Source: Nitrospira lenta (GTDB lineage: Bacteria; Nitrospirota; Nitrospiria; Nitrospirales; Nitrospiraceae). From it: a stretch of DNA of 44,404 nucleotides. Positions 2,921 to 25,205 of this stretch are shown piece by piece (the first letter of the stretch is position 1; each line of letters begins with the position of its first letter). The stretch covers positions 1-44,404 of the forward strand of contig CAMDPZ010000011.1 in assembly GCA_945905765.1 (NCBI GenBank), read 5' to 3'. The notes under the pieces were generated by a model. The model searched no databases, was not told the DNA's origin, and worked only from the letters and a program-made list of their open reading frames with translations. Both the position numbers and the translations under genes were made by a program.

Positions 2921-2922
2921 TG

Positions 2923-3018: not shown

Positions 3019-3042
3019 CAACCACACACTGTTGGTCTCTCT

Positions 3043-3074
3043 GCCGCACCCCCTTCTCTCGGTGCGGTTTTTTT
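3043..3074 (+). terminator. Rho-independent terminator of the TPP riboswitch
   Basis: Stem CCGCACC (3044-3050) pairs with GGTGCGG (3061-3067) around a 10-nt loop and is followed at once by seven T (3068-3074). It lies between the aptamer and the thiC start, 48 bp before the ATG, so it is the likely expression platform: ligand-bound RNA would terminate here. Confidence 0.88.
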
Positions 3075-3089
3075 ATTTCTGCTTACTAA

Positions 3090-5036
<1,947 letters not shown>

Positions 5037-5989: not shown

Positions 5990-6000
5990 CGTCACCCGCC

Positions 6001-6058
6001 ATTCGTCACGCGTCAATCGGGAGCTCATGGAGGCCCGATTCCGATGCAAATGACGAAT
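6001..6058. repeat. Stem-loop between thi4 and the TPR gene
   Basis: Nested inverted repeats: outer arms ATTCGTCA (6001-6008) and TGACGAAT (6051-6058), inner arms AATCGGG (6015-6021) and CCCGATT (6034-6040). It is followed by short direct repeats of the type TGACGA/TTGACGA up to the TPR start. There is no T-run, so a processing or stability element is as likely as a terminator. Confidence 0.6.
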
Positions 6059-6079
6059 GACCAATGACGATTGACGATC

Positions 6080-6595: not shown

Positions 6596-6685
6596 CCGGT
6601 CTATCTGGCCTGTCAGGTCTATCTCGTCTGTCTGTTCAGTCATGAAGAAGATCCATCAACTCTGATCCGAAAGCAGCCCCCCACA

Positions 6686-7093
6686 ATGACCACACATTCT
6701 CACCAGACAGACAAGACAGACCAGAAAACCATCCTTGTCGGCGTCACAGACATTTTCTTTTACACCAAAGTCCGCGACGCCCTGATAGCGAAGGGCTACA
6801 AGTTCGAACGGGCTCGCACACAGCAGGACATCGCCGAGAAGGCATCCGCCAACAACCCTGTCGCCTTCATTTTGAACATGAACGACGAGACCCTGAACGC
6901 CTTTCAAGCCTTGGAAACGTTCGCAGCCGACGCGCAGCTCAAAACTATTCCCATCCTGGCCTTCGCCAATCACGAAGAAGTCGATACCTTTAACCGGGCC
7001 AGAGCGCTGGGCGTGGCCAAAATCGTCTCGCGCAATGAGTTCTCCGCTCGATTGAAAGACCTGGTCGAAGAAGTCGCAGGGAGTCACGCATGA
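6686..7093 (+). CDS. Degenerate response-regulator receiver-like protein
   Basis: A 135-aa single-domain protein with the alternating strand/helix pattern of a CheY-like fold (ILVGVTD, AFILNMND, IPILAFANH, AKIVSRNEF strands). The catalytic set is missing: the strand-3 phosphoacceptor region reads FILNMND with Asn64 where Asp is expected, the strand-4 Ser/Thr is replaced by Ala, and the strand-5 Lys region reads VSRNEF. If it is a receiver it cannot be phosphorylated normally and may act as a binding module. Its ATG lacks a clear ribosome site. The first codons after the start are made of CAGACAGACAAGACAGACC-type repeat. The last four bases overlap the ygfZ start, so the two are probably translationally coupled. 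Confidence 0.75.
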   Translation: MTTHSHQTDKTDQKTILVGVTDIFFYTKVRDALIAKGYKFERARTQQDIAEKASANNPVAFILNMNDETLNAFQALETFAADAQLKTIPILAFANHEEVDTFNRARALGVAKIVSRNEFSARLKDLVEEVAGSHA

Positions 7094-8181
7094 AACAGTC
7101 ACGCCTCCACGATCACCATACGAAGCTCGGCGCCACCTTTGAAGAGGCCGCAGGCTGGGACATGCCCGCTCACTATGGCAAATGGGTCGAGGAATATCAG
7201 GCGGTGCGCCAGGCAGTCGGCCTCTCCGACCTCTCGCACCGGGGCAAGATCCGCGTCACCGGCGACGACCGTGTGAAGTGGCTGCAGGGCCTCATCAGCA
7301 ACGACATTCTCCCGCTCCAGCCAGGCCAAGGCCGCTATTCGAGCTTTCTCACCCATAAGGGCAAGATGCTCGGCTATTTCCGGGTCTATGTCCTGGCAGA
7401 CAGTCTGTGGGTGGAAGATGTCGGCGAGGTCGGCGAGGCCACCATCCAAGCGCTCAAAAAGTTCCTGCTCTACGGGATCAAAGCGAAGATGGAAAACTGC
7501 GCAGAATCCTGGGGGCTCTTGCTCATCAGCGGGCCCAAGGCCTGCGCCACCGTCAGCGCCGCCTTCGGTGTGGAGATGCGCGACCTCAAGCCGGTGAGCG
7601 CCGTCGCAGCCCAGATCGGCGGGCATGCCTCGTTCGTCCTGCGCACAGAAGAGACAGGAGAGACTGACGTCGAAGTATTACTGCCAGCCGAGGCCCTTAG
7701 CACGGCCTGGGAGCGACTCATGGAAGCAGGCGCGGCCCACGGCATCAAAGCCGTCGGGAGTCTCGCTCGCGAAGCCCTCCGCATCGAAGCAGGTCTACCC
7801 AAAGCAGGACCGGACCTCAATGAAGAGATCGTCCCGCCGGAAGCGAATCTAGAAGGGAAAGCCTTTAGCTTGAGTAAGGGCTGCTATCCGGGGCAAGAAG
7901 TCGTGGCGAGGATGGATACCTATGGCAACGTGCGGCGGCACTTAGTCGGGCTGGTCATGAAGGGATCGGTCATCCCACCGAAAGGCGCCAAGCTCTTCAG
8001 CGGAGACCGCGAACTCGGCTGGGTCAGCAGTGCGACCCAGTCACCTCAGATGAAGGCCCCCATCGCCCTGGCATTCCCGCTTCGGGACTTCTCAGCCCCC
8101 GGCACAATCCTCACCGTTGAAGTCGATGGCGCTCGTCATGACGCGACGGTGCAGGCGCTCCCCTTCTACCGTCGCGCCTGA
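7090..8181 (+). CDS. ygfZ: YgfZ/GcvT-family folate-binding protein
   Basis: Folate-dependent protein that in other bacteria helps assemble or repair a subset of Fe-S enzymes. The 363-aa product has the GcvT-like start (LGATFEEAAGWDMPAHYG, SDLSHRGKIRVTG) and, at about residues 259-266, the YgfZ signature KGCYPGQE, which distinguishes it from the glycine-cleavage aminomethyltransferase. It overlaps the preceding receiver-like gene by ATGA. Its position downstream of thiC is suggestive because ThiC is an Fe-S enzyme, but that link is inference. I considered gcvT itself and rejected it because no glycine-cleavage genes are nearby and the signature is YgfZ's. Confidence 0.9.
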   Translation: MKQSRLHDHHTKLGATFEEAAGWDMPAHYGKWVEEYQAVRQAVGLSDLSHRGKIRVTGDDRVKWLQGLISNDILPLQPGQGRYSSFLTHKGKMLGYFRVYVLADSLWVEDVGEVGEATIQALKKFLLYGIKAKMENCAESWGLLLISGPKACATVSAAFGVEMRDLKPVSAVAAQIGGHASFVLRTEETGETDVEVLLPAEALSTAWERLMEAGAAHGIKAVGSLAREALRIEAGLPKAGPDLNEEIVPPEANLEGKAFSLSKGCYPGQEVVARMDTYGNVRRHLVGLVMKGSVIPPKGAKLFSGDRELGWVSSATQSPQMKAPIALAFPLRDFSAPGTILTVEVDGARHDATVQALPFYRRA

Positions 8182-13942: not shown

Positions 13943-14101
13943 GCGCTAGTGCCTCGCTCGTTCCGTGTTTGGGCCTGCGCACTATAAACAGCGCGGAAGA
14001 TCTCCGTCAATTCCGCGTCTCCGTCTCCGCTCCGGTTCAACGCCCCCTTGACCGGTTGGACCAGTTTCGTCTTTAATGGGCTCCGTTCGGAGGCTAGCGG
14101 T

Positions 14102-14536
14102 ATGGCGAATACGCATGTGAAAGAAATGAAGGCGCTCAAGGAGCACCTGGGCAAGCATCAGCTCAAACTCACCCGCCAGCGGGAATTGATCCTGAGCGCG
14201 TTCCTTCGCCAAGAACATATTACGGCAGAAGCCATGTATCACCAGCTGGCCAAGTCCGATCCTCACTTGGGGCTCGCCACCATCTACCGGACGCTCAACC
14301 TGTTTTGCGATGCGGGCCTGGCGCAGGCCCGCCACTTCGGCTCCCAGACGCAATATGACAATATCGCGCACAAGGGCCACCACGATCACCTCATCTGCAC
14401 CGGCTGCCAGAAAATCGTGGAATTTGAGAACGAAGAGATCGAGCGGCTCCAAGAAGAAATGGCCAGCAAGAACGGATTCACCATCACCACTCACCGGCTT
14501 GAGCTCTACGGTCTCTGCTCCCGCTGCCGCCATTGA
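14102..14536 (+). CDS. fur: Ferric uptake regulator family protein
   Basis: Metal-sensing winged-helix repressor. The 144-aa product has the DNA-binding half (LTRQRELILSAFL, HITAEAMYHQLAK, GLATIYRTLNLFCDAGL with the recognition helix at about 57-67) and the dimerisation half with HHDHLICTGCQKIVEF. His93, His94, His96, Cys99, Cys102 and the C-terminal pair Cys139/Cys142 make up regulatory and structural metal sites as in Fur and PerR. ATG at 14102 is chosen because CGGAGG (14088-14093) is correctly spaced; an upstream in-frame start lacks a site. It is immediately upstream of the Fe(III) transporter, which favours Fur over PerR or Zur, though sequence alone does not prove the metal. Confidence 0.93.
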   Translation: MANTHVKEMKALKEHLGKHQLKLTRQRELILSAFLRQEHITAEAMYHQLAKSDPHLGLATIYRTLNLFCDAGLAQARHFGSQTQYDNIAHKGHHDHLICTGCQKIVEFENEEIERLQEEMASKNGFTITTHRLELYGLCSRCRH

Positions 14537-14554
14537 CGAACCGGCTTTTTTTTA

Positions 14555-14579
14555 GTATCATCTTGATACGGCTTATCAA
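14555..14579 (+). promoter_or_regulatory. Candidate Fur operator upstream of the Fe(III) transporter
   Basis: Two overlapping dyads: GTATCA-TCT-TGATAC (14555-14569) and TTGATA-CGGCT-TATCAA (14563-14579). They recall the overlapping 7-1-7 hexamer architecture of Fur boxes and precede the binding-protein gene by about 25 bp. A run of eight T just before (14546-14553) may end fur transcription, though no strong stem is visible. Confidence 0.45.
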
Positions 14580-14604
14580 TTTCAATTACATGAGGACTCC
14601 TCTT

Positions 14605-15645
14605 ATGTTATTCACCTGCTCCCTGCCAACATTACGCCGGACGATCCTCGCTGGTCTCATGTTCTTCGTTGTCGCCGGGCTCCTGGCGCCCTACGCCCAA
14701 GCAGCCGACAAACTCACGATCTACTCCGGCCGGGGGGAACGGCTCATCAAACCGGTCCTCGATGCCTTTACGGCAAGCACCGGCATTCAAATCGAACTCC
14801 TCTCCTCCGGCACGACGGAATTGGTCAATCGGCTGAAGGCGGAAGGCGATCGCACCTCGGCAGACCTCCTGATCACCAACGACGCAGGCAGCTTGGAGCT
14901 GGCCCGGACCGCTGGCCTCCTTCGCCCCTTGAACATGCGGGAAGTCGAACGGGCCATCCCGGCGCAATTCCGCGCCCCGGACAATGCCTGGGTCGGGCTC
15001 TCCGGACGGTTCTGGATCGTCGTCTACAATACCTCGCTAGTGAAGCCGGATCAGGTGAAGTCGCTCCTCGACCTCGCCGACCCGAAATGGAAAGATAAGA
15101 TTGCCATTCCGAATTCCGGCAGTGAATATCTGCAGGCCGGCGTGTCGGTCATTCGCGCCACCCATGGAGACGAAAAGACCAGACAGTTCCTGCAGGGCCT
15201 CAAGGCCAACGCTGACGGCCAGGTCTATCAGAAGAGCTCGCAGATCGTGGATGCCGTCGCCAAGGGGCAGGTCGCGCTGGGGATCGTGAATCACTACTAC
15301 ATCTACCGTCACCTCGCCACACAGCCCAATGCACCGATCGCCGCCTTGATGCCGGATCAATTTGAGGGCGGCATGGGGGCCATCATGAACGTCGCCGGCA
15401 TCGGCATCGTCAAGTCGACCAAACATTTGGATAGCGCCAAGCTCCTCGTCGAATTCCTGGTCGCCCAAGCAGGACAGAAATTATTCGCGGACCTCGACAA
15501 GGAATATCCCCTTCACCCGGATGTGAAAGCGGACCAGGCCCTCGTGGAGCGGAAGAGCTTCCGTGCCGCCTTGGTTCCCCTCACCAAGCTGGCGGAATTG
15601 CGCGAGCCGACCCTCACACTGATCGAACAAGTGGGTCTCCGGTAA
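14605..15645 (+). CDS. fbpA: Fe(III) ABC transporter, periplasmic substrate-binding protein
   Basis: Binds ferric iron in the periplasm and delivers it to the permease. The 346-aa product starts with a cleavable signal peptide (TILAGLMFFVVAGLLAPYAQA, cut before ADKLTIYSG). The mature part follows the FbpA/FutA transferrin-like fold: LTIYSGRGERLIKPV, SADLLITNDAGSLELA, GRFWIVVYNTS, and LGIVNHYYIYRHL, which includes the adjacent tyrosines that usually ligate iron. ATG at 14605 is preferred over 14590 because GAGGA (14592-14596) is spaced correctly for it. It is the first gene of fbpABC and lies just behind fur. Confidence 0.95.
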   Translation: MLFTCSLPTLRRTILAGLMFFVVAGLLAPYAQAADKLTIYSGRGERLIKPVLDAFTASTGIQIELLSSGTTELVNRLKAEGDRTSADLLITNDAGSLELARTAGLLRPLNMREVERAIPAQFRAPDNAWVGLSGRFWIVVYNTSLVKPDQVKSLLDLADPKWKDKIAIPNSGSEYLQAGVSVIRATHGDEKTRQFLQGLKANADGQVYQKSSQIVDAVAKGQVALGIVNHYYIYRHLATQPNAPIAALMPDQFEGGMGAIMNVAGIGIVKSTKHLDSAKLLVEFLVAQAGQKLFADLDKEYPLHPDVKADQALVERKSFRAALVPLTKLAELREPTLTLIEQVGLR

Positions 15646-15663: not shown

Positions 15664-17247
15664 GTGAGCACGATTCGCCAACAGCTTGCCTCACCGCTGC
15701 AACTCCTTGCCCTCGCCACTGCGGGCCTCATCCTGCTGCCGCTTGGCTATGTCACGGCACAGGCCCTCTCGGCCGATCCGGCAGTCTGGAGCCGTTTATG
15801 GAGCACCCGCATTCCCGAACTGCTATTCAACACCGTCTCTCTAGCCGCCAGCGTAGCAGTCATCACGCTCTTCCTGGGCGTCTCAACCGCCTGGCTGGTC
15901 ACGCGCACGGAATTCCCCGGCCGCAGACTGTGGGAGGGCGCCTTGGTCCTTCCGTTGGCCATGCCGACTTACGTCCTGGCCTATGTCTATTCCTATCTTT
16001 TAGGATTCGGCGGTCCGGTCGAACATCTCTGGCAACTGCTGGCAGGCCCTCAAGCCAGGATCTTCTCTCCCCATAGCTATTGGGGCGCGACGCTCGTCAT
16101 GGCCTTAGATACCTTTCCCTTCGTCTATCTCCTCAGCCGGAGCGCCCTCCTCAGCATGAACGTCTCATTCGAAGAGGTGGCGCGGGCCAGCGGCGCCTCC
16201 CGCCTCTCGACCCTTTGGCGCGTGACCCTGCCCTTGATGCGCCCCTCGATTGCCGCCGGGGTCGCCCTCGTCATCTTGTATGTCGTGTCGGACTTTGGCG
16301 CAGTCTCTTTGCTTCGCTACCAGACCCTCACCTATGCCGTGTTTCAGCAGATGACCGGACGGTCCGACAATACGGCCGCGAGCATCTTGAGCCTCTTGCT
16401 GGTTGCCCTTGCGCTGATTTTCCTGATCACTGAACGGTGGTTCCGGCAACGGAGCCGGTTCTACCAAACGACCGGCCGCTACAGAGCTCCGCAACGGCAT
16501 CAGTATGGCTGGCTCGGCACGATCGCCATCACCAGCTATCTCGGGCTGATCGTCGGTGCGGCTTTCGCGCTTCCAGCCTCGCTCTTAATTCAATGGAGCC
16601 TGTCTCCCGAAGCGCAAGCGACGCTCGATAGCCGGTTTTTTGGATTTGTCTGGAACAGCGGCCTCCTGGCCGCCAGCGCCGCTACCGGCGGGGTCTTGAT
16701 CGGCTTGCCGCTCGCCTACCTGGCGAGCCGCCGCCCAACCCTGCTGAACGTGGGTTGCCTGCAGGCAGCCTATGCAGGCTATGTGCTGCCGGGCCCGGTG
16801 GCGGCATTGGCCGTCCTCGTCCTCTTTACCAAACTGGCTCCCGTGTTCTACGGCTCGGTCCTGATCCTCATCGTGGCCTACGTGATCCACTTTCTCCCGG
16901 CCGGCCTTCAATCGCTGGAGCCGGCGCTTCAGCAAATTACCCCGAACCTGGAAGAAGTCTCTCGCACGCTGGGCTTTGGCATGCGGGCGACCTGGCGGCG
17001 AGTGACGCTGCCCCTGGTCCGCAATGGATTTGTCGTTGCCTGGGTCTTGATGTTTCTGCAAACGATGAAGGAATTGCCTGCGACCCTCTTATTGCGACCG
17101 GTGGGGTTCGACACCCTGGCCATTCGCGTCTGGATGGAAGCGAGCGAAGAATACTTTCAGCTCGCCGCCCCCGCCGCGCTCCTCATTGTGTTACTAAGTC
17201 TCCCGGCATTGGCCTTGTTAGTCTCAAAAGATTGGCGCGCCGCCTAA
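15664..17247 (+). CDS. fbpB: Fe(III) ABC transporter, fused permease
   Basis: Inner-membrane channel of the ferric-iron transporter. The 527-aa protein is a tandem of two binding-protein-dependent permease domains with about twelve helices, as in FbpB/FutB/SfuB. Each half has an EAA-type coupling loop: EVARASGASRLSTLWRVTLPL in the first and EEVSRTLGFGMRATWRRVTLP in the second (given as overlapping short blocks). GTG at 15664 has GAAGGA eight bases upstream. The gene begins 18 bp after fbpA and ends 33 bp before fbpC, consistent with one operon. Confidence 0.95.
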   Translation: MSTIRQQLASPLQLLALATAGLILLPLGYVTAQALSADPAVWSRLWSTRIPELLFNTVSLAASVAVITLFLGVSTAWLVTRTEFPGRRLWEGALVLPLAMPTYVLAYVYSYLLGFGGPVEHLWQLLAGPQARIFSPHSYWGATLVMALDTFPFVYLLSRSALLSMNVSFEEVARASGASRLSTLWRVTLPLMRPSIAAGVALVILYVVSDFGAVSLLRYQTLTYAVFQQMTGRSDNTAASILSLLLVALALIFLITERWFRQRSRFYQTTGRYRAPQRHQYGWLGTIAITSYLGLIVGAAFALPASLLIQWSLSPEAQATLDSRFFGFVWNSGLLAASAATGGVLIGLPLAYLASRRPTLLNVGCLQAAYAGYVLPGPVAALAVLVLFTKLAPVFYGSVLILIVAYVIHFLPAGLQSLEPALQQITPNLEEVSRTLGFGMRATWRRVTLPLVRNGFVVAWVLMFLQTMKELPATLLLRPVGFDTLAIRVWMEASEEYFQLAAPAALLIVLLSLPALALLVSKDWRAA

Positions 17248-17280: not shown

Positions 17281-18357
17281 GTGACCTCAGACCATTCCAC
17301 AACCGTTTCCTCGGTCTTGGAACTGCGCCAAGTTTCCTGTTCCTATGAAACAGGACGGCCCGCGGTCCAGGACATTTCGTTTGCGGCCAAGGAAGGGGAG
17401 ATCCTCTGCCTGCTCGGCCCCTCCGGCTGCGGGAAAACGACGATTCTTCGGGCGATCGCGGGATTTGAACCGGTTCGCGCAGGGCAAATTTTCCTATCGG
17501 GCCAACTCGTGTCGTCGCAGGCGGTGATGACCCCGACGGAGAACCGGCGCATCGGGATGGTCTTTCAAGAATATGCGCTCTTCCCCCACTTGCGCGTGCA
17601 GGACAACATCGCCTTCGGACTCAGCCAACTCACGCGAAGCCTGCGCGCCGCGCGGGTCCAGGAGATGCTGCGGCTCACAGGGCTGGAGGGATTCGAGCGG
17701 CGGTATCCGCACGAATTGTCGGGCGGCCAGCAACAGAGAGTCGCGCTGGCCCGCGCCCTCGTCCAGAATCCCGTCGTCCTGTTGCTCGACGAGCCCTTCA
17801 GTAATTTGGACCCGGATATGGCCGGACGCATGCGCCAAGAATTACACGACCTCTTGCGCCGGACGAAGACGACGACTGTGCTCGTGACACATGACCATGA
17901 CGAAGCCTTTGCCATGGCCGATCGCATTGCCGTCCTCAACCAGGGCCGCCTGGAGCAATTCGATACGCCGGAAATGATGTACCACCTGCCGGCCACACCC
18001 TTCGTGGCAGACTTTGTCGGTCAGGCGGACTTCATTCCTGGAACCGTCTCGCACGGCATGGTCCAGACCGAACTGGGCGAATTTCCCGATACCCTCGAAT
18101 GTCAGGACGGTACAACCGTGGTCGTCATGATCAGACCGGACGACATTCACCTCGTCCCGACGGAAGGCGCCAGATCCCGCGTCATTTCCCGCCAATTCCG
18201 CGGCTCGGAAAATCTCTACACCGTCAGCCTTCCCTCCGGTCAAATCGTCCATAGCAGCCAAGGCTCCACGAGTGTTTATCAGGCAGGCACGACGGTGGAG
18301 CTCCGTGTCCTGGCGACCCACACAGTACTCTTCCGGCAAACAAAATCGGCCAGCTAA
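17281..18357 (+). CDS. fbpC: Fe(III) ABC transporter, ATP-binding protein
   Basis: Cytoplasmic ATPase driving ferric-iron import. The 358-aa product has Walker A GPSGCGKTT, the Q-loop (MVFQEYALFPHL), the ABC signature LSGGQQQRVALARAL, Walker B VVLLLDEPFSNLD and the switch VTHDHDEA. A C-terminal TOBE-like regulatory domain occupies about residues 240-350 (MIRPDDIHLVPTEG). This fits the CysA/MalK/FbpC subfamily, and the adjacent FbpA and FbpB fix the substrate. GTG at 17281 follows AGGAAGGA by ten bases. No T-rich terminator is visible after it. Confidence 0.95.
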   Translation: MTSDHSTTVSSVLELRQVSCSYETGRPAVQDISFAAKEGEILCLLGPSGCGKTTILRAIAGFEPVRAGQIFLSGQLVSSQAVMTPTENRRIGMVFQEYALFPHLRVQDNIAFGLSQLTRSLRAARVQEMLRLTGLEGFERRYPHELSGGQQQRVALARALVQNPVVLLLDEPFSNLDPDMAGRMRQELHDLLRRTKTTTVLVTHDHDEAFAMADRIAVLNQGRLEQFDTPEMMYHLPATPFVADFVGQADFIPGTVSHGMVQTELGEFPDTLECQDGTTVVVMIRPDDIHLVPTEGARSRVISRQFRGSENLYTVSLPSGQIVHSSQGSTSVYQAGTTVELRVLATHTVLFRQTKSAS

Positions 18358-18489: not shown

Positions 18490-18921
18490 ATGAACGCGCT
18501 GCAAAACGTCGTCGATTACGGCATCATCGGACTCCTCTTGGCGCTCAGCCTCTGGACTGTGGCCGTGGCGGTCGAGCGGTGGCTCTTTTATCGCCGCGTC
18601 AATCTTGCCCAGTACCCCAGCAGCCTGGGATTGGAAATGGCTCTGACCAAACGATTGGTCATCATCGGCACGGTCGCCGCAAACGCCCCCTATATCGGCC
18701 TGCTGGGCACCGTGCTGGGCATCATGCTCACCTTCCATACGATGGGCACCTCCGGCACCATGGCCGTCAATGCCATCATGATCGGGCTCAGCCTGGCGCT
18801 GAAAGCGACGGCGGTCGGATTGCTGGTCGCGATTCCCTGCGTCGTCATGAACAACGTGCTCCGGCGAAAAGTCACCGAGCTCCTCGCTCTACACAAGGAA
18901 CAGCATGCAGCGCGACATTGA
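18490..18921 (+). CDS. exbB: ExbB/TolQ-type proton channel subunit (short form)
   Basis: Inner-membrane subunit of the motor that uses proton flow to energise TonB. The product is only 143 aa, the compact form lacking much of the cytoplasmic region of E. coli ExbB. Three helices are visible: GIIGLLLALSLWTVAVAVE, NAPYIGLLGTVLGIMLTF (with the conserved GLLGTVLGI block) and MIGLSLALKATAVGLLVAIPCVV. It overlaps exbD by 17 bp. The 132-bp gap before it has a TTGACA at 18393 but no good -10 hexamer, so it may be expressed from the iron operon. Confidence 0.93.
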   Translation: MNALQNVVDYGIIGLLLALSLWTVAVAVERWLFYRRVNLAQYPSSLGLEMALTKRLVIIGTVAANAPYIGLLGTVLGIMLTFHTMGTSGTMAVNAIMIGLSLALKATAVGLLVAIPCVVMNNVLRRKVTELLALHKEQHAARH

Positions 18922-19279
18922 TCAGATCAACGTCATCCCCCTCGTGGATGTCATGCTGGTCCTCCTGGTCATCGTCCTGACCACCGCCACCTTTATCAGC
19001 AGCGGCCAGATTCCGGTCAATTTGGCCAAAGCGAAAGAGGTCGGCGACCGTAAGGATGCCCCCGTCGTGATCACCCTGACTGCCGAGGGCGCGCTCTTCC
19101 TCAACGACCATGCCATTCCTGAAGGAGGGCTCTCTGGCGCCCTGGCGTCGGAGCCTCGAGAATCGGCGGTCGTCGTGCGGGCGGACAAAGTCATCCAGCT
19201 CGAACGGTTCGTGTCGGTGGTGGATGAAGTGCGAGGGCTGGGATTTCAACAAGTCAGCCTGGAGGTCGTTCGGCTGTGA
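18905..19279 (+). CDS. exbD: ExbD/TolR-type proton channel subunit
   Basis: Partner of ExbB. The 124-aa protein has a short cytoplasmic N-terminus (MQRDIDQINVIPLVD), one membrane helix with the conserved, proton-carrying Asp15 in LVDVMLVLLVIVLTTATF, and a periplasmic domain (VVITLTAEGALFLNDHAIPEG, AVVVRADKVIQLERFVSVVD). An AAGGA site lies before the ATG inside the end of exbB, and the last bases overlap the tonB GTG, so all three are translationally coupled. Confidence 0.94.
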   Translation: MQRDIDQINVIPLVDVMLVLLVIVLTTATFISSGQIPVNLAKAKEVGDRKDAPVVITLTAEGALFLNDHAIPEGGLSGALASEPRESAVVVRADKVIQLERFVSVVDEVRGLGFQQVSLEVVRL

Positions 19280-20160
19280 CCGCTGCCGGACCACAGCACT
19301 CCGGAAGCCGGAAGAGTTCTCACGTACAAGGCTGGGTTGTCTCTCTCCTCCTGCATGGAACAGTGGTGCTCGGCGCAATCCTGCTCGTAAAGCAGATCCA
19401 ACTCGCGCCGCAAGAAAAGCCGTTCAAGTGGGACGTCTCGCTCGTCTCGCCAACAAAGCCAGTGACGCCGGAATCGTCACCCCCGAGCCAGGCTCAGGCC
19501 CAGCCTCCCCCCGCTCCCGTTCGGCAGCAGACGGCACCGGCACCGCAAACCCAGCCGCCACAGCCCCCCGCGCCACAGACCACTCCATCGCTTACTGAGC
19601 GGACCATCACTCCAATGACCCCAAAAACTCCTGTATCGCCACCGCCACAACCGGCTGAGCCAATCAAACATGAAACTGTGACGCCGATGGTCACAGAGGC
19701 CCCAGCCGTCGAAAAGCCAAGCGAAGCGCCGGTGGCCGCTCCTGCGAAACCTGCGGCACAGATGCCTCCGCCCGCGCCGCCCGCAATCCTGGAACAGACA
19801 GCCAAACCTGACTCAGTGCCAGCGCAGACTGCCGCGATCGCCCCTGCGCCGACAAACGAACCGGCGAAGCGAGACTATGGATGGCTCTCTGAAGCGATTG
19901 TACGGCGTGTGGAAGAATTAAAACGCTACCCAGCTGCAGCGCGAATCGAGCGAGCCGAGGGAAGGGTCGTGGTCAAAGCGGTGATCAACGAGGATGGCAG
20001 CGTCGGCGAGATCGAGATCGTTCAGAGCTCAGGATTCCCCATCCTCGACAAGGCTGCAGTGGAAACCATCAAACAGGCAGCTCCTTTCCATCTACCTCAT
20101 CCGCTGGGCCGGCCACGATTGACGATCAAAATTCCCATCAGTTATCGATTGGACCGATGA
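19276..20160 (+). CDS. tonB: TonB energy-transducing protein
   Basis: Transfers motor energy to outer-membrane receptors. The 294-aa protein has a single N-terminal helix (SLLLHGTVVLGAILLVKQI), a long Pro-rich periplasmic spacer (about 50-195, many PP, AP and KP pairs) and a C-terminal TonB domain (YPAAARIERAEGRVVVKAV, GEIEIVQSSGFPILDKAAV, TIKIPISYRL). GTG at 19276 overlaps the exbD stop; GGAGG lies ten bases upstream. No TonB-dependent receptor gene is found in the window, so the receptors served are elsewhere. Confidence 0.95.
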   Translation: MTAAGPQHSGSRKSSHVQGWVVSLLLHGTVVLGAILLVKQIQLAPQEKPFKWDVSLVSPTKPVTPESSPPSQAQAQPPPAPVRQQTAPAPQTQPPQPPAPQTTPSLTERTITPMTPKTPVSPPPQPAEPIKHETVTPMVTEAPAVEKPSEAPVAAPAKPAAQMPPPAPPAILEQTAKPDSVPAQTAAIAPAPTNEPAKRDYGWLSEAIVRRVEELKRYPAAARIERAEGRVVVKAVINEDGSVGEIEIVQSSGFPILDKAAVETIKQAAPFHLPHPLGRPRLTIKIPISYRLDR

Positions 20161-20186: not shown

Positions 20187-20498
20187 TTACCCCTGGCACT
20201 CCAGCTGCTTCCAGTCTCGCAGAATACCCTGTCGATCAAATGTCAGCACGTAGGCGCGGCAAAAGGCTGAGCGAGCCGTGCCAGCGTAGATTGAGGTGGC
20301 GCTCCCCCGCTCAAAGTACGTCCAGACCGTTTGATGGCCCTCACGCTGCTCAACCTTATGGGGCTGGCCATAGCGCTTGGCCACTCGCTCGGCCGTGGCT
20401 TCATCCACACGATCTTTGAAGTACTGAGTATCGAACTCCGAACAGGCACAGACTGCCCCTAGGGCGTAGATAAGTACAAGTTGCTGAAAAGTCCGCAT
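20187..20498 (-). CDS. BamE/SmpA-like small lipoprotein
   Basis: A 103-aa exported protein. The N-terminus LVLIYALGAVCAC is a short lipoprotein-type signal with Cys19 as the probable lipidated residue (Cys17 is an alternative). The body RVAKRYGQPHKVEQREG, VWTYFERG and YVLTFDRQGILRDWKQLEC resembles the BamE/SmpA/OmlA fold: a helix pair, then a GxP turn and strands ending in a W-x-Y and a closing F-D-x-x-G. The ATG overlaps the apbE stop by one base (TAATG), so it is coupled to the flavin transferase. Its role is unknown; a chaperone or anchor for a flavinylated partner is only a guess. Confidence 0.7.
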   Translation of the reverse strand: MRTFQQLVLIYALGAVCACSEFDTQYFKDRVDEATAERVAKRYGQPHKVEQREGHQTVWTYFERGSATSIYAGTARSAFCRAYVLTFDRQGILRDWKQLECQG

Positions 20499-21562
20499 TA
20501 TTGATCGTGGCCTTTGGCATCGGAATTGGACGGAAACCGAACGCGGGCCTTTAATCCGGATGAGACAAACACGCGGCCGTCGTGCCCGACAATAATGGCC
20601 TCAACATCCGGCAGCTGCTCGACGAGTTCCATGCCCCGTTCCGGTCCCATCACAAAGATCCCCGTGTCCAACCCGTCGGCCCAGACCCCCTCTTTCGCAA
20701 TCACCGTCACACTCTGACAAGCGCGCGCCGGTTGAAGCGTAAGCGGATCGAGAATGTGATGATACCGGACCCCGTCCCGCTCAAAGAACCGTTCGTAATC
20801 CCCGGCGGTTGAAATGGCTTCGTCCTGTAAATCGATCCAGGCCAGTACCGCACCCTCCTGTCGCGGGTGCTGGATGCCGAAGGGAAACAGCTTTCCGCCC
20901 GGCAGCCGGCCGAATGTTTTGATATCCCCTGAAAGCGCGACAACTCCGGCAATAGCCCCGGCTTTCTGCATGGCCATCGCCGCTTGATCGGCTGCGTAGC
21001 CCTTGCCAATCCCTCCCACATCGATCCTCATCCCTGCTTTCTCAAGATAGATCGTCCGGCCCCGCGCGTCGACATGGACAGATTGCAAATCCACCAAGGG
21101 ACGGAGGGCCTCCAACTCGGATGCCATCGGTATCCGTTGCGCCTCGGTCACGCGCCAGGCATCGACCGCCGGCCCGATGGCAATATTGAAACCGCCTCCC
21201 GTCATCTCCGCTGCCTCCATCGCGCGCCGTACAACCGTCAACGTGTCGAAACTCACAGGGACCGGCATGCCTCCCGCCGCAGCATTGACGCGGGACAGTT
21301 CGCTCGTGGGAATCCAGGTGCTCAGGAGCTCTTCTAGGCGCCGGATCTCGGCAAACCCCGCAGCAGCCGCAGCCTGCGCAGCAGACTCACTCCGCCCCAC
21401 CGCCGTAATCTTAACCAGCGTGCCCATCTGCATCTGAGCTCTGATAACCACGACAGGCTTCTGGCTAGATGGAACTCCAGCACAGCCGAAAAAGGCGCCA
21501 GCCAGCAATGTCAAACAGCAGATCTGGGAAGAAAACAACTTTTCGAGCGGCTTGAAATACAT
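20498..21562 (-). CDS. apbE: FAD:protein FMN transferase
   Basis: Attaches FMN from FAD to a Thr or Ser in extracytoplasmic target proteins through a phosphoester bond. The 354-aa product has an export signal ending at Cys27 (lipoprotein-like, atypical FFGC). ApbE blocks are present: MGTLVKITA (46-54), ELLSTWIPTSELSRVN (78-93), RIDVGGIGKGYAADQA (179-194), ALSGDIKTFG (209-218), AISTAGDYERFF (249-260), HHILDP (268-273) and the Mg-binding DGLDT (296-300). The ATG has AGGGGG upstream and TATAAT at 21593-21588. It is divergent from an operon that encodes an FMN-binding protein with an SGAT acceptor motif, its likely substrate. Confidence 0.96.
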   Translation of the reverse strand: MYFKPLEKLFSSQICCLTLLAGAFFGCAGVPSSQKPVVVIRAQMQMGTLVKITAVGRSESAAQAAAAAGFAEIRRLEELLSTWIPTSELSRVNAAAGGMPVPVSFDTLTVVRRAMEAAEMTGGGFNIAIGPAVDAWRVTEAQRIPMASELEALRPLVDLQSVHVDARGRTIYLEKAGMRIDVGGIGKGYAADQAAMAMQKAGAIAGVVALSGDIKTFGRLPGGKLFPFGIQHPRQEGAVLAWIDLQDEAISTAGDYERFFERDGVRYHHILDPLTLQPARACQSVTVIAKEGVWADGLDTGIFVMGPERGMELVEQLPDVEAIIVGHDGRVFVSSGLKARVRFPSNSDAKGHDQ

Positions 21563-21587
21563 GAATCCCCCTCATAAACAACAACGA

Positions 21588-21593
21588 ATTATA
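21588..21593 (-). promoter_or_regulatory. -10 hexamer of the apbE promoter
   Basis: A perfect TATAAT on the minus strand about 25 bases before the apbE ATG, giving a leader near 20 nt that contains the AGGGGG ribosome site. No good -35 hexamer is seen at 16-18 bp, so an activator or an extended element may be needed. Confidence 0.5.
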
Positions 21594-21627
21594 GGGCATG
21601 ATAGGGACGAATGCACTGCTTTCTCCT

Positions 21628-21645
21628 TGCAAATAGGCATTTGCA
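21628..21645. promoter_or_regulatory. Operator-like palindrome TGCAAAT-N4-ATTTGCA
   Basis: A perfect 7-bp inverted repeat with a 4-bp spacer (AGGC), placed seven bases upstream of the TTGACA -35 box of the rightward operon and about 35 bases upstream of the apbE -10. The position suits a regulator acting on both divergent promoters. Its identity is unknown. Confidence 0.5.
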
Positions 21646-21651
21646 TCGCAC

Positions 21652-21680
21652 TTGACACAGAAGCCATTTGTAAGATATTA
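21652..21680 (+). promoter_or_regulatory. Promoter of the com-like/porin operon
   Basis: TTGACA at 21652-21657 with ATATTA at 21675-21680 (17-bp spacer). TAAGAT at 21671 is an alternative but the spacing would be only 13. Transcription would begin near 21687, inside the candidate Fur box. Confidence 0.6.
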
Positions 21681-21702
21681 ATAATCGTTCTCAATTTCAT
21701 TT
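21679..21702 (+). promoter_or_regulatory. Candidate Fur box over the transcription start
   Basis: AATAATCGTTCTCAATTTCA resembles iron-box sequences in front of iron-repressed genes (a GATAAT-like half followed by a TTCTCATT-like half). It covers the predicted start of transcription, which suits repression under iron sufficiency. A fur gene lies 7 kb to the left. Confidence 0.6.
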
Positions 21703-21722
21703 AGACAGGGAAGCGACCAGTC

Positions 21723-21902
21723 ATGGCCAGCGCAACGCCCCGGATAAACCACCCGACAGATTGCGGAGAGACCCGCTGCGAATGCGGACAATTGATCGCT
21801 AAAGTCTGCGGGCAAGGGCTGGAGCTCAAGTGCAAGCGCTGCAAGCGCATTGTCGTGATCCCCTTCTCTGCCATTCAAGGATGGAGCACGGCCACATCAT
21901 GA
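21723..21902 (+). CDS. Com-like zinc-ribbon small protein
   Basis: A 59-aa ORF from ATG 21723 to TGA 21902. The centre reads RCECGQLIAKVCGQGLELKC followed by KRCKRIVVI: a two-knuckle zinc ribbon with Cys19/Cys21 and Cys37/Cys40 as likely ligands. It resembles the Com protein of phage Mu, an RNA-binding translational activator of mom, and small Com-family proteins found in many genomes. It differs in having CxC in place of CxxC in the first knuckle. It is the first gene behind a Fur-box promoter, with AGGGA about ten bases before the ATG, and precedes the porin gene by 89 bp. By analogy it could bind the operon mRNA; no mom-like gene is present. Confidence 0.7.
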   Translation: MASATPRINHPTDCGETRCECGQLIAKVCGQGLELKCKRCKRIVVIPFSAIQGWSTATS

Positions 21903-21991
21903 TCGACCGATCCCTGTCTAGCCAAACAAGACCAGAGACCAGCGAGTCCCGCGTCAAACCATCACCCCTATTGTTCTCATGGAGGTTTGCA

Positions 21992-23473
21992 ATGAGGATG
22001 CGCTCAATCCTCGGGGCTCTCGTACTCGCCAGCTTGCCGGTCATGCCGGCCATGGCAGAAAACATGACCCCGGAAGACATCAAGAAATTAGTCGATGAAG
22101 CAGTCAACAAGCGGATGCAGGCTTACGAGCGCCGCGACGGTGCCATGGAACGGACCATGGAAAAGAAAGAGGGGCAACCCGGTGCGGCTCAATACCCTGC
22201 CCCAACCGGAGCCATGACCGATATTAAGGTCGAACGAAAGGGCGAGGAAAACATCCCTCTAGGATTCGGGTCAACCGGGTCAGGCAAGCTAATCTATGCC
22301 AAACCATTTTTGAGCGCCCCAAAAGCCACGATCGGTGGCTACGCGGATGTCATGTATAATAATCTTTCACGGCAGAACCTGGACAATCCCAGCCGCCATA
22401 GCTTCGGCCAACAGCGGATGGTGCCCTTCATCTATGCGGACATCACAGATCATGTGAAATTTGCGACAGAAATTGAAATTGAACGTGGCGGACCCGGCGC
22501 ACCGGCTAGCACCACTAGTGGCGGAGGGCCTGACGGTTCCATACAGATTGAGTTCGCCCAAATGGACTACCTGGTCAACGAGGCCATCAACATCCGCGCC
22601 GGCATCCTCCTCATGCCGGTGGGCAAGTTCAATTTACTGCATGATTCACCGTTGAACGATCTGGTCGATCGGCCCATGGTCTCCAGAATCATCATCCCCA
22701 GTACCTGGTTCGAGGCAGGCGCCGGAATCTACGGAACGTTCTACCCCACCTCCCTCTCGAAGCTGGACTATGAAATATATGCAGTCAACGGCATGAGCCA
22801 AACCGCCGGCGCAATCACCGACACCGGAGTGCGAGGCGCGCGAGGCAGCGTCTCGCGCGATCGCGACGACAACAAGGCGATTGTCGGGCGCCTTGCGTTC
22901 AGCCCGAGACTAGGCATTGAAGTCGCAGGCTCCGGCTTCCATGGTCAGTACAAGCCGTCAAACGGGACCACTGGAGCCGGATATATCGACATATTTGCGC
23001 TGGACTGGACACTCCAGCGAGGCCCCTTTGAAGTGATCGGAGAGTCCGCCTGGTCCAGAATCAGCAATAACAATGCGACTGGGCAGACCGGGAATGGCAT
23101 CGGGCCGGCCGGCATGCAGGGTTATTACATTCAGGGCAACTATCACTTCATGCCGGATGCCCTGAAGAAGTGGGCGCCAAGCCACTTCTCGGATGCCTCA
23201 ACCTTCACCGCCGTCATGCGCTGGGAGCATGTGGATACCGACACCGACGACCGCACTCGGAGGACGCCCAACACTCTTGGGAATAGACGGGAGATGGAAC
23301 GACTGACGCTCGGCTTGAACTTCAGGCCGATCGAAGATACGGTGTTCAAGTTCGACTGGCAGTTCAATACTCAGAAAAATGCCCTGGGCCTTACTGACGC
23401 TGGAGACCTTGGCGCAACAAGCAGCCCAATGAACGGGAACGGATTCCTGATTCAGGCCGCAACATACTTCTAG
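21992..23473 (+). CDS. Outer-membrane porin-like protein
   Basis: A 493-aa exported protein. The signal peptide is MRMRSILGALVLASLPVMPAMA. A short charged helical region follows (EDIKKLVDEAVNKRMQAYERR, in pieces), then a beta-barrel of alternating strands (ATIGGYADVMYNN, VPFIYADITDHVKFATEIEIE, NIRAGILLMPVGKFNLLHD, GYYIQGNYHFMP). It ends in Phe (AATYF), the outer-membrane insertion signal. The N-terminal helix plus barrel layout recalls phosphate- or anion-selective OprP/OprO-type porins, but the substrate is not readable. ATG at 21992 follows GGAGG by six bases; the upstream part of the frame overlaps the com-like gene and is not coding. It belongs to the Fur-box operon. Confidence 0.88.
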   Translation: MRMRSILGALVLASLPVMPAMAENMTPEDIKKLVDEAVNKRMQAYERRDGAMERTMEKKEGQPGAAQYPAPTGAMTDIKVERKGEENIPLGFGSTGSGKLIYAKPFLSAPKATIGGYADVMYNNLSRQNLDNPSRHSFGQQRMVPFIYADITDHVKFATEIEIERGGPGAPASTTSGGGPDGSIQIEFAQMDYLVNEAINIRAGILLMPVGKFNLLHDSPLNDLVDRPMVSRIIIPSTWFEAGAGIYGTFYPTSLSKLDYEIYAVNGMSQTAGAITDTGVRGARGSVSRDRDDNKAIVGRLAFSPRLGIEVAGSGFHGQYKPSNGTTGAGYIDIFALDWTLQRGPFEVIGESAWSRISNNNATGQTGNGIGPAGMQGYYIQGNYHFMPDALKKWAPSHFSDASTFTAVMRWEHVDTDTDDRTRRTPNTLGNRREMERLTLGLNFRPIEDTVFKFDWQFNTQKNALGLTDAGDLGATSSPMNGNGFLIQAATYF

Positions 23474-23481
23474 CCATATAG

Positions 23482-23516
23482 CTGACGCGCCCCACCATCA
23501 CGGTGGGGCGCGTCAG
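23482..23516 (+). terminator. Perfect 15-bp hairpin after the porin gene
   Basis: CTGACGCGCCCCACC (23482-23496) pairs without mismatch with GGTGGGGCGCGTCAG (23502-23516) around the loop ATCAC. The bases that follow are A-rich, not T-rich, so it may partly terminate or protect the 3' end of the porin mRNA rather than act as a classical terminator. It would lower expression of the genes downstream relative to the porin. Confidence 0.6.
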
Positions 23517-23538
23517 AGAAAAACAAAACAGGTTACGC

Positions 23539-23994
23539 ATGGTTCATCGATTACTCACATTGCTTCTAGTGCCCGCCATCCTGACCGCCTGCGCCGCTAC
23601 CAACGGAATGCAGGAACGCTATGCGGTCTGCCGCTACGACCAAGCCTGGGAAGCAACGCTTGACGCGGTGAAAGACCGCGCGATTGCCCGGCAGGATAAG
23701 GATGGAGGGCTGATCGAAACCGCGTGGTTCGAAATCCCCATGCCGAAGCGAGCATTTGGCGCGCTTCAACGCGAGGTAGCGGATAGCAAAGATCGATCGC
23801 GTCTTATCTTCACGGTGAAACGACTCGACGATGTGAGTAGAGTGAGCTTCCTGGAGGAGCGGCAGCGATGGACATTCCGCGGCGGGTCTCGCCTCTTCGG
23901 TTGGGCCGCGACAGGCCCCTCCGAGGAAATGATGCGCGATGTTCAAACCCGCCTGGATACCAAACTGAAGGAGCACGGATGTTCGCCCTCGTAA
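23539..23994 (+). CDS. Lipoprotein of unknown function
   Basis: A 151-aa exported lipoprotein: MVHRLLTLLLVPAILTAC with lipobox LTAC (Cys18). The body (YDQAWEATLDAVKDRAIARQDK, GLIETAWFEIPMPKRAFGAL, SRLIFTVKRLDDVSRVSFLEE, RQRWTFRGGSRLFGW) has the helix plus two-layer strand pattern seen in small periplasmic lipoproteins with a DUF-type fold that I cannot name. ATG at 23539 is chosen because the earlier in-frame start lies in the hairpin arm. It overlaps the FMN-binding gene by 16 bp, so the pair is coupled. Confidence 0.8.
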   Translation: MVHRLLTLLLVPAILTACAATNGMQERYAVCRYDQAWEATLDAVKDRAIARQDKDGGLIETAWFEIPMPKRAFGALQREVADSKDRSRLIFTVKRLDDVSRVSFLEERQRWTFRGGSRLFGWAATGPSEEMMRDVQTRLDTKLKEHGCSPS

Positions 23995-24662
23995 AAGTCA
24001 GCTCTCTCCTCATCTTCATCGGATTGCTATCGGCGATCGATCTGTTTGCCGCCGAGCGTGTCTGGGATAGCGAACTCAAACGTTATCTCACCGAAGAAGA
24101 AATGAACCATGCAGAAGTCTTCATGACCGAGGATGATGCGGTAAAAATCATGCTCCCCAAGTCGCAACGCGTCCGCAAGGAAGTCCTCCGCCTGAGCCAG
24201 GACAAGAAAGACGTGATCGAGCAGCGTATCGGCTGGAAATTCCCGGAGGAAACCTTTGAGGTCTACATCGGTGAAACCGGCGACAAAATCGACGGCTACG
24301 CGATGGTCCATAACACCATAGGCAAACATAAGCACATGACTTACATGGTTGGCGTGGATGCCAAGGGAGTCTGCTCCGACGTTGAACTGCTCGTCTTTCG
24401 CGAAGCCAAAGGCAGCGAAGTCGGCAGAAAGCGGTTCAACGTCCAATATGAAGGGAAAACGGTCCTCGATCCGATCCGCATCAACAAAGACATCATCAAT
24501 ATCAGCGGGGCCACGATGTCGGTCCGGTCGATCAGCGCCGGCGTCAAACGCGTCCTCGTCCTGGTCGACGAATTCTATTTGAAACCGGCGGGGCTGGGCA
24601 GCGATACTGTCGCTGCCAAGAAATCGGAGAAGGGGATCTTCGGGTCCATCTTCGGGAATTAA
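23979..24662 (+). CDS. FMN-binding-domain protein, predicted ApbE substrate
   Basis: A 227-aa exported protein with a signal peptide (ALVKVSSLLIFIGLLSAIDLFA) and an FMN_bind domain. The strand-rich part (EETFEVYIGETGDKIDGYAMV, HMTYMVGVDAKGVCSDVELL) leads to DIINISGATMSVRS, in which Ser176-Gly-Ala-Thr179 is the (S/T)GAT motif flavinylated by ApbE in Na+-NQR, RNF and related electron-transfer proteins; Thr179 is the predicted FMN acceptor. Cys132 is the only cysteine. No heme motif is present. ATG at 23979 has AAGGAG upstream within the preceding gene. Gene order lipoprotein - FMN protein - four-helix membrane protein, with apbE divergent, suggests a flavin-based electron-transfer unit in the periplasm. 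Confidence 0.9.
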   Translation: MFALVKVSSLLIFIGLLSAIDLFAAERVWDSELKRYLTEEEMNHAEVFMTEDDAVKIMLPKSQRVRKEVLRLSQDKKDVIEQRIGWKFPEETFEVYIGETGDKIDGYAMVHNTIGKHKHMTYMVGVDAKGVCSDVELLVFREAKGSEVGRKRFNVQYEGKTVLDPIRINKDIINISGATMSVRSISAGVKRVLVLVDEFYLKPAGLGSDTVAAKKSEKGIFGSIFGN

Positions 24663-24686
24663 TAGGAGCAGGCGACCGTCTCAACC

Positions 24687-25205
24687 ATGCGCAACTTCAA
24701 CACCCGCTTCCGTCTCCGCGACTCAGACCGGCATATCCGGCTGGTCTATACCTTCTTCCTCTTCTTGATGCTGGTCGGCTTTACCTTTTCCTTTTTCTGG
24801 GCCCACAGCATGACGGGGCTATCGCCGGAAGGGATCGCCAATCACTATCGAGGCTCGGATATTACGTTCGGCGAACCAATGTCGTTCAGAGAGCTGGCGG
24901 AAATTACCCACTTCCACCTCTTCACGATGCCGGTCGTGTTCATGATCCTGGTCCATGTGCTCTATCTCACCAACGCCAGCAGCAGGCTGAAAGTCGTCAC
25001 GACCTGGATCTCCTTCGGCGGCGTGACGCTGGACCTCTTGTCCCCCTGGCTCATCAGCTATATCTCACCGGTGTTCGTGATCACGATGCTGACGGGCGAC
25101 ACCCTCATGACCGTGGGATTCCTCATCATGATGGTGATTCCCCTCTACGAGATGTGGGTCTTAAAACAACCGTTGATGGCGGGCAAGCACGGAGGGCATG
25201 AATAG
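24687..25205 (+). CDS. Four-helix membrane protein with conserved-looking histidines
   Basis: A 172-aa inner-membrane protein with four predicted helices: about 20-41 (YTFFLFLMLVGFTFSFFWAH), 75-96 (FHLFTMPVVFMILVHVLYLT), 104-126 and 129-157. Histidines at 40, 53, 75, 77 and 90 fall in or at the ends of helices 1 and 2, a pattern compatible with b-type heme ligation but not proof of it. It lies 24 bp after the FMN-binding gene and would be the natural membrane partner handing electrons to the flavin. I do not recognise a named family. The ribosome site (AGGAGCAGG) is rather far from the ATG. Confidence 0.75.
   Translation: MRNFNTRFRLRDSDRHIRLVYTFFLFLMLVGFTFSFFWAHSMTGLSPEGIANHYRGSDITFGEPMSFRELAEITHFHLFTMPVVFMILVHVLYLTNASSRLKVVTTWISFGGVTLDLLSPWLISYISPVFVITMLTGDTLMTVGFLIMMVIPLYEMWVLKQPLMAGKHGGHE

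Follow-up and report, generated by a model that had tools for sequence, protein, structure and literature searches.

We analysed a 44,404-nucleotide stretch of DNA (the window), which is one entire contig (C11; CAMDPZ010000011.1) of a 2.33 Mb genome in 115 contigs, estimated to be about 90% complete; the named relatives of this genome are metagenome-assembled genomes of the Nitrospira type. The window contains a set of genes encoding, among others, a FAD:protein FMN transferase (ApbE), an exported FMN_bind protein, an outer-membrane porin and a small four-helix membrane protein, which we refer to as tm4, and this set lies next to genes of iron transport. The module is real, conserved and tied to iron, and we offer a hypothesis concerning its specific chemistry. 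Read rightward from fur, the locus comprises fur, a three-gene iron ABC transporter, exbB, exbD and tonB; beyond tonB, a small lipoprotein gene and apbE run leftward, and a zinc-ribbon gene, the porin gene, a lipoprotein gene, the FMN_bind gene and tm4 run rightward. The coordinates, strands and divergent layout given in the original prediction, made from the sequence of the window, were confirmed; the parts of the locus are:

14048..14536 (start approximate), forward strand: fur, Fur-family regulator (best NCBIfam match, ferric uptake regulator)
14533..15645, forward strand: iron ABC substrate-binding protein, FbpA/FutA type (PDB profile matches)
15664..17247, forward strand: iron ABC permease (matches to ABC permease families, all under cut-offs; linked to the module in relatives)
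17281..18357, forward strand: iron ABC ATPase (sequence judged by eye; linked to the module in relatives)
18490..18921, forward strand: exbB (PF01618, 1.8e-25)
18905..19279, forward strand: exbD (PF02472, 4e-22)
19276..20160, forward strand: tonB (PF03544, 2.8e-19)
20187..20498, reverse strand: small lipoprotein, family unconfirmed (patchy, 19/57 loci)
20498..21562, reverse strand: apbE, FAD:protein FMN transferase with a lipoprotein-type signal, judged by eye (PF02424, 2.2e-80)
21651..21657, forward strand: -35 element CTTGACA of the rightward promoter (conserved spacing to the box)
21674..21692, forward strand: Fur-box-like site GATATTAATAATCGTTCTC, overlapping the presumed -10 element (15/19 to the Fur consensus)
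21723..21902, forward strand: zinc-ribbon-like (com-like) protein of 59 amino acids (CxC...CxxC)
21992..23473, forward strand: outer-membrane porin, Porin_O_P-like (PF07396 matches of homologues)
23539..23994, forward strand: lipoprotein, no family (DUF3576 under cut-off)
23979..24662, forward strand: exported FMN_bind protein, SGAT at 176-179 (PF04205; gene overlaps the lipoprotein gene)
24687..25205, forward strand: tm4, membrane protein of four helices, the second bearing HxH (75, 77) and H90 (hydropathy; alignment)

Both flavin-related proteins are what they had been taken for. The ApbE protein scores 270.5 bits against PF02424 (cut-off 25.6), matches FMN transferases in PDB down to 1.2e-50 and carries the motifs ADGLDT and HILDP. 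The FMN_bind protein scores 30.8 bits against PF04205 (cut-off 22), has a single, N-terminal hydrophobic segment, and Thr179 is the threonine of its SGAT motif; [ST]GAT is present in all 102 homologues longer than 200 amino acids (SGAT in 88, TGAT in 14, with some genomes counted twice). Its nearest PDB chain is RnfG (9eri_G, 5.3e-7). An assignment as RnfG was rejected on the two NCBIfam rnfG models, which give 22.4 bits against a cut-off of 102 and 24.6 against 205.

Family or PDB matches and sequence likewise uphold the claim that Fur, an iron ABC transporter and ExbBD-TonB are encoded next door. The fur product matches the NCBIfam ferric uptake regulator with 1.2e-31 and 109.3 bits, under the equivalog cut-off of 146. 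The ABC binding protein, searched with residues encoded from 14593 on, matches 7li0, a 'Fe(3+) ABC transporter substrate-binding protein' (3.2e-52), and 2pt1 (3.7e-46), and is thus clearly of the FbpA/FutA (Fe(3+)) kind. Two labels did not survive. The small lipoprotein, called 'BamE-like' earlier, gave no match to any Pfam family, and its four homologues do not match BamE/SmpA either; one of them gave a chance-level match of another kind. The 'com-like' zinc-ribbon protein of the window has no match, and a distant homologue (L141) reaches Zn_ribbon_Com (PF10122) only at E 0.025 and 14.5 bits, against a cut-off of 22.9. The CxC and CxxC motifs are conserved in 66 sequences of this protein, which may perhaps bind RNA, as Mu Com does.

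Co-occurrence in related genomes bears out the grouping of these genes. Linkage in Nitrospira was counted at 80 loci fetched from named genomes, with loci truncated at contig ends excluded. The FMN_bind gene adjoins tm4 in 77/77 cases (in one of them, L048, as a remnant in an 82-codon frame, with porin and lipoprotein gone), the lipoprotein gene is present in 73/76 and the porin gene in 68/69. The zinc-ribbon gene (66/68) and the divergent apbE (57/60) are nearly as constant, followed by exbD (49/53), exbB (47/52) and tonB (48/55); topA is found at 36 of 54 loci and the small lipoprotein gene at only 19 of 57. The gene tm4 itself occurs in 114 of the 147 genomes of the family, including one partial match (G142), and in 90 of the 109 good ones; the nearest homologue among the matches listed, 97% identical, comes from Nitrospirae bacterium isolate Baikal-G1.

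Beyond the genus, gene presence in the order, the class and deep branches was recounted in six frames, because a simple gene caller had missed some genes, and means presence anywhere within the fetched stretch. Twelve loci were taken from other genera of the family, from further families of the order and from deep branches. All of them contain the FMN_bind, porin and lipoprotein genes; com occurs at 11, apbE at 10, the ATPase of the iron ABC transporter at eight, Fur at four, and exbB and tonB at three each. Seven other families of the class contributed 16 distinct loci (L147 and L205 being one and the same), some of them truncated by contig ends, so that the counts hold for the fetched stretch; FMN_bind is present at 16 of these, ApbE at 15 (each time fused to FMN_bind), the porin and Fur at 13 each, com at 11 and iron ABC genes at 10, and exbB and tonB at none. 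Six tm4 sequences aligned from these loci share 28-36% identity with that of the window. Four loci from other classes have FMN_bind (4/4), a porin (3/4) and Fur (2/3 recounted; L152 lay outside the six-frame recount and was counted from an earlier gene reading). In wider surveys the tm4 profile matches 100 of 295 Nitrospirota genomes (five partially: G154, G156, G164, G184, G274). Among 58 genomes related to one distant genome, a set that includes Nitrospirales, it matches 43 (four partially: G367, G372, G375, G379). The gene set is far beyond chance association, and its enduring core is FMN_bind and tm4, nearly always with the porin.

The proposed link to iron transport also persists in other families of the class and in other gene orders. 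In L141, fur, a cupredoxin gene (4.4e-31), FTR1 (6.1e-46), the zinc-ribbon gene, the porin gene, the ApbE-FMN_bind fusion and tm4 follow each other on one strand, overlapping or 11 bases apart save for about 190 bases upstream of the porin gene. A cupredoxin gene lies downstream in L145 (4e-15), and cupredoxin-like genes were recognised by eye only in L144, L186 and L187, that of L144 having no significant match.

The distribution of ApbE and FMN_bind largely follows that of the module. Of 41 relatives searched, 37 have FMN_bind, 34 of them in a single copy; the genome of the window and five single-contig genomes each have one FMN_bind and one ApbE, those of the module itself. Among 14 genomes without tm4, eight have neither ApbE nor FMN_bind, four have ApbE together with a different FMN_bind of 277 codons, and two (G052, G060) have ApbE near a contig end. 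The contig of G052 ends just past the box and the zinc-ribbon gene, and apbE of G060 starts at base 3; these two absences of tm4 are probably assembly cuts. In G070, the sole one of the four to be opened, ApbE and FMN_bind lie within a Na+-NQR operon (named by eye). In these genomes, ApbE thus seems to work for the module or for a different FMN_bind protein, that of NQR being an example. At L208 (4921-9308), from a genome of the family that lacks the module, ApbE closes what looks like a Na+-NQR operon that includes an FMN_bind subunit of its own.

The control region between apbE and the zinc-ribbon gene is conserved as well, including the candidate Fur box of the original prediction. In all 61 apbE/zinc-ribbon intergenic regions available (60 loci and the window) there is a Fur-box-like site, scoring 13-15 of 19 against the Fur consensus (15/19 in the window) and lying 38-137 bases, mostly about 50, upstream of the zinc-ribbon gene. 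When each region was resampled 100 times, the observed score was equalled in 0 to 8% of cases. The box is identical to GATATTAATAATCGTTCTC of the window in 50 of the 61 regions, and in 60 (the exception being L081) it is preceded by CTTGAC(A/T) and 16 further bases; in the 58 regions long enough for alignment, the consensus continues past the box as CAATTTCAtt. The candidate is a strong phylogenetic footprint, and a conserved Fur-type site stands at the promoter, as in a Fur-regulated iron operon. A box over the -10 element is in the usual place for a repressor, and we infer that Fur binds there. The core AATAATCGTTCTCA, allowing at most one mismatch, occurs once in G000, once in G061 and twice in G073; with these counts, it cannot by itself outline a regulon. 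In 20 of the 61 cases the intergenic region is at least 700 bases long, and eight of ten long regions inspected (L031, L049, L062, L069, L076, L090, L097, L107) have the box and apbE separated by an additional leftward frame of 200-249 codons, lipoprotein-like by eye.

The 15 fused proteins of the class (L141 to L146, L148, L186 to L193) all have ApbE first and FMN_bind second. Between the two parts, all 15 carry a Tat-like RR-x-(F/V)-(L/M) motif (RRRFL in 10), followed directly by a hydrophobic stretch that exceeds the threshold in 13 and falls under it in L144 and L191. None of the 14 whole fusions has an N-terminal hydrophobic stretch over the threshold (L189, whose ApbE part is split across two frames, was left out of this count). 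The flavinylation motif is SGAT in 14 and SGAS in L145, and a sixteenth fusion, truncated at a contig end, also has RRRFL. Our reading of these features is that the ApbE half would be cytoplasmic and the FMN_bind half exported by the Tat pathway, so that FMN could be attached before export; that FMN is transferred to the partner is only suggested by the fusion. A review of ApbE (PMC12052999) mentions ApbEs located in the cytosol and, from trypanosomatids, a fusion of ApbE with fumarate reductase; in the portion of it available to us, the words Tat and twin-arginine do not occur.

The most unusual component is tm4. Hydropathy agrees with the four helices predicted earlier, placing hydrophobic segments near residues 19-37, 76-94, 108-126 and 129-147. 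By the positive-inside rule, the distribution of Lys and Arg would leave both termini cytoplasmic and the long loop that follows helix 1 periplasmic; this loop runs into helix 2, whose outer end carries H75 and H77, with H90 lying toward the inner end. Across 15 sequences reaching down to 23% identity, M1, Y54, G56, P64, E72, H75, H77, H90, F110 and W121 are invariant. No family was found for tm4 in Pfam or NCBIfam at E up to 0.1, nor for one distant homologue at E up to 1, and a tm4 profile has no match in PDB. The defining Pfam domains of the five membrane types described for flavinylation systems (NapH-, MsrQ- and PepSY-like, DsbD, NQR/RNF-like) were not found in it. Membership in DUF4405 was ruled out by an hhalign probability of 1.2% against four DUF4405 members; the short DUF4405 profile itself matches 83 of 100 Nitrospirota genomes and is therefore unspecific.

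Relatives of tm4 do exist in the form of 236-271-residue proteins of the same phylum (hhalign 98.9%, 2.1e-17), which share helices 2 to 4 and the HxH motif, show a CxxCH motif in the loop and a Leu in place of H90. These haem-c paralogues were noted at L152 and L154 to L159. In two genomes of the family of the window (L156, L158), the paralogue is followed by a cytochrome c and by a protein of about 400 residues with an N-terminal CxxCH; the latter proteins are barrel-like by eye and have no Pfam match. Exchange of flavinylated and cytochrome parts has been reported for other systems (PMC8238504, as far as its text was available). The module proteins themselves lack CxxCH: the motif was found in none of 110 tm4, 105 FMN_bind, 102 lipoprotein, 69 porin, 68 com and 58 apbE products. 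Together with the Fur-type control site and the finding that some of the genomes concerned also encode a tm4 of the haem-c kind, this would fit a role in iron sparing: haem carriers in an electron path of the periplasm would give way to a flavin carrier, much as ferredoxin does to flavodoxin, and the reduction of iron would not be the task. We consider this improbable, as the linkage to iron transport recurs in varied gene orders, one relative adding FTR1 and a cupredoxin, and points to uptake itself, and a second, partial match to the tm4 profile occurs in few genomes only, though the profile may miss some.

The porin deserves separate attention. That of the window has no Pfam match, and the homologues L151 and L141 stay under the Porin_O_P cut-off (PF07396, 20.9 bits); two Nitrospira homologues exceed it (L032 with 31.4 and L072 with 30.2 bits). 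We typed the porins at the 62 of the 80 named loci that have tm4 and com together with a porin, lipoprotein and FMN protein of full length, and at 60% identity they split into two types, with 39 and 23 loci; the type of the lipoprotein matches that of the porin in 60 of the 62. Given tm4, the partial correlation of porin identity (55 of the 62 loci, those usable for apbE) is 0.87 with the lipoprotein and 0.71 with the FMN protein, compared with 0.06 with com and 0.00 with apbE; values as high were reached in 0, 0, 145 and 483 of 999 permutations, respectively. Among pairs of loci with tm4 at least 93% alike, mean identities in the 22 pairs of different type are 0.49 for the porin, 0.37 for the lipoprotein, 0.71 for the FMN protein, 0.82 for com and 0.76 for apbE, and in the 67 pairs of the same type 0.89, 0.77, 0.87, 0.84 and 0.80. 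On the tm4-com tree the type switches 9 or 10 times (10 falls to 9 when L060 is left out or retyped), and at least six switches are forced by well supported branches under the original typing; a one-clade test used types that were already known, and its p value is only descriptive. L060 holds both porin-lipoprotein pairs in tandem, at 2253-4195 and 5301-7292. The switches, set against stable flanks, indicate that the outer-membrane parts are exchanged as a cassette. Along the FMN protein, the identities of same-type and different-type pairs diverge most at residues 1-80 (for instance 0.83 versus 0.46 at 41-60) and little at 161-228, and the first 80 residues may be a docking part or merely carried along.

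Such covariation, affecting the lipoprotein and the FMN protein and sparing com and apbE, is what one would expect if porin, lipoprotein and FMN protein formed one complex, a flavin conduit leading electrons from tm4 outward to an acceptor located at the outer membrane or farther out, in the way that porin-cytochrome conduits work with haems. The porin does belong to the smallest core, three of the four loci from other classes combining it with FMN_bind and tm4, and the paralogous set in two genomes of the family pairs a CxxCH-bearing tm4-like protein with a cytochrome c and a barrel-like CxxCH protein. We nevertheless regard a conduit as unlikely: porins often stand beside uptake systems as plain channels, the covariation may reflect recombination that carried the first part of the FMN_bind gene along, no chain of redox centres is visible through the barrel, and the 400-residue proteins have no Pfam match, the trio being found at only two of the eight loci inspected. 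A still broader proposal, to which we likewise assign a low probability, is that tm4 founds a class of porin-linked conduits with interchangeable flavin and haem, the haem-c-free version (tm4, the FMN_bind protein and a plain porin) serving under iron shortage and a set of tm4-like haem-c protein, cytochrome c and barrel with a haem motif being its counterpart. In the fused branch, the ApbE half would attach FMN while still in the cytoplasm and Tat would then export the loaded FMN_bind half, making this a self-flavinylating exported protein.

The reading that we favour, with somewhat better than even confidence, is that of a module repressed by Fur that serves iron acquisition through electron transfer outside the cytosol; it would reduce ferric chelates in the periplasm and feed the adjacent ABC transporter. 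This reading draws on the gene content and its linkage, the Fur-type site, the flavinylation motif, the fusion of ApbE and FMN_bind in relatives and their joint absence from genomes lacking the module; Fur binding, FMN attachment, haem, the direction of electron flow and chelate reduction are its predicted elements. Under iron shortage, Fur would leave the box over the -10 element and the operon would be expressed. ApbE would attach FMN to Thr179 of the exported FMN_bind protein, to which tm4 would hand electrons, probably from quinol and probably via haem b held by the histidines of helix 2, perhaps in a dimer. Close to the outer-membrane porin and the lipoprotein, the FMN protein would then reduce periplasmic ferric chelates, and the adjacent ABC transporter of the FbpA type would pick up the released iron. 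Flavinylation clusters tied to iron uptake, those of the PepSY type being Fur-repressed, have already been described (PMC8238504, from the portion of the text available).

Several observations weigh against this account or against a strict coupling of its parts. For tm4 there is no match in 19 of the family's 109 good genomes, and the match in one more, G142, is only partial. The lineage of L048 and L025 has kept apbE, the start of the zinc-ribbon gene and tm4 and has lost the porin, the lipoprotein and most of the FMN_bind gene, and the genome of L025 (G115) has no FMN_bind match at all. In the class, L186 has neither porin nor Fur within its 9 kb. ApbE is absent from the fetched stretches of all four loci of other classes, at one of which (L152) tm4, FMN_bind and a haem-c paralogue follow one another and no porin match was obtained. 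The only invariant histidines of tm4 are three, all on helix 2, so that two bis-His haems would need a dimer.

The fate of the iron raises a further objection. Our search for importers covered FeoB, FTR1 and Nramp, leaving aside ZIP, VIT1 and TonB receptors. FeoB was found in 0 of 41 Nitrospirales genomes (controls 7/14 positive), FTR1 in 0 of 41 (controls 4/14) and Nramp in 0 of 24 over the cut-off, with one match below it in G042 (controls 7/14). As these importers were not found, while part of the controls gave matches, the ABC transporter is the expected destination of the reduced iron; for free Fe(II), no other known route would exist besides this transporter, whose binding protein resembles Fe(III) binders. 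The original idea of an electron-transfer module that reduces Fe(III) before uptake has thus fared unevenly: the conserved ApbE-FMN_bind module, the Fur-type site and the tie to iron transport speak for it, and the uptake of Fe(II), with FeoB, FTR1 and Nramp not found, speaks against it. An iron ABC transporter of Nitrospira, AfuABC, is named in PMC12542776, in the accessible text of which FMN, TonB and siderophore do not appear as whole words.

The same two facts, a binding protein of the Fe(3+) type and the three importers not found in the Nitrospirales searched, would suit a reverse flow, with Fe(II) entering by the porin and being oxidised, Fe(III) passing to the FbpA-type protein and the electrons to the quinone pool, and the cupredoxins over cut-off at the two distant loci L141 and L145 could be read in its favour. 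Fe(II), however, oxidises spontaneously in oxic water. Characterised flavinylated systems have a cytosolic donor and an extracytosolic acceptor, although the reverse is possible in principle (PMC8238504, in the text available), and we hold this direction to be very unlikely.

Some further scans of the window or of its proteins should be recorded. Rfam and tRNA scans gave no match at the module locus; elsewhere in the window, a TPP riboswitch (2925-3027, 71.4 bits) lies upstream of a thiC-like gene at 3123. Three module proteins submitted to PADLOC had no match, nor had plasmid records screened with tm4, one distant tm4 and one haem-c paralogue.

A literature search through titles and the beginnings of abstracts, covering few subscription journals, returned no description of this gene set. 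Members of the genus Nitrospira are major nitrite oxidisers, some of which oxidise ammonia completely, and their enzymes are demanding in iron. As the genomes searched yielded no FeoB, FTR1 or Nramp, the module is a strong candidate for the means by which Nitrospira wins chelated iron. With tm4, it also enlarges the small group of membrane proteins known as partners of flavinylated proteins by an uncatalogued member, and the fused form offers a testable case of ApbE joined to its likely client with an export motif between them.

Among known systems, the closest are the flavinylation-iron clusters of the PepSY-like, MsrQ-like and P19-FTR1 kinds (Meheust et al. 2021, PMC8238504), which, judging by the text available, share with the module ApbE, an exported substrate, a membrane electron-transfer protein and iron-transport genes and, in PepSY cases, Fur control. 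The module differs from them in that tm4 has no Pfam match to the five membrane types and that a porin and a lipoprotein belong to the core; neither 'porin' nor 'Nitrospir' occurs in the main text of that paper as available. The DUF4405 cytochromes and FezC (Huang et al. 2024, PMC10979944, available in part) resemble tm4 as small helical membrane proteins with conserved histidines, DUF4405 being often encoded beside apbE, whereas tm4 lacks a match to the profile of four DUF4405 members and has four hydrophobic segments and its HxH and third histidine on one helix. RnfG and NqrC have in common with the FMN protein the FMN_bind domain with a [ST]GA[ST] site, and RnfG is its nearest PDB chain, but the protein of the window falls far below the RnfG models and no Rnf or Nqr genes were recognised at the locus. 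With the ferri-siderophore reductases FoxB/HiuB and FpvG the likeness would lie in the proposed job, the freeing of iron by periplasmic reduction, FpvG being likened by its description. In Pseudomonas aeruginosa, the reductase FpvG is described as acting together with FpvC and FpvDE, a binding protein and an ABC transporter (PMC6954188, in the text available). HiuBC of Caulobacter is Fur-controlled (hiuABC) and thought to be reductive (PMC13001220); HiuB and FoxB are PepSY-type proteins, unlike tm4, and 'ApbE' does not occur in the available text of that source. The module is a variant of the described flavinylation-linked iron clusters, distinguished by its uncatalogued membrane protein, its core porin and its unusual fused form.

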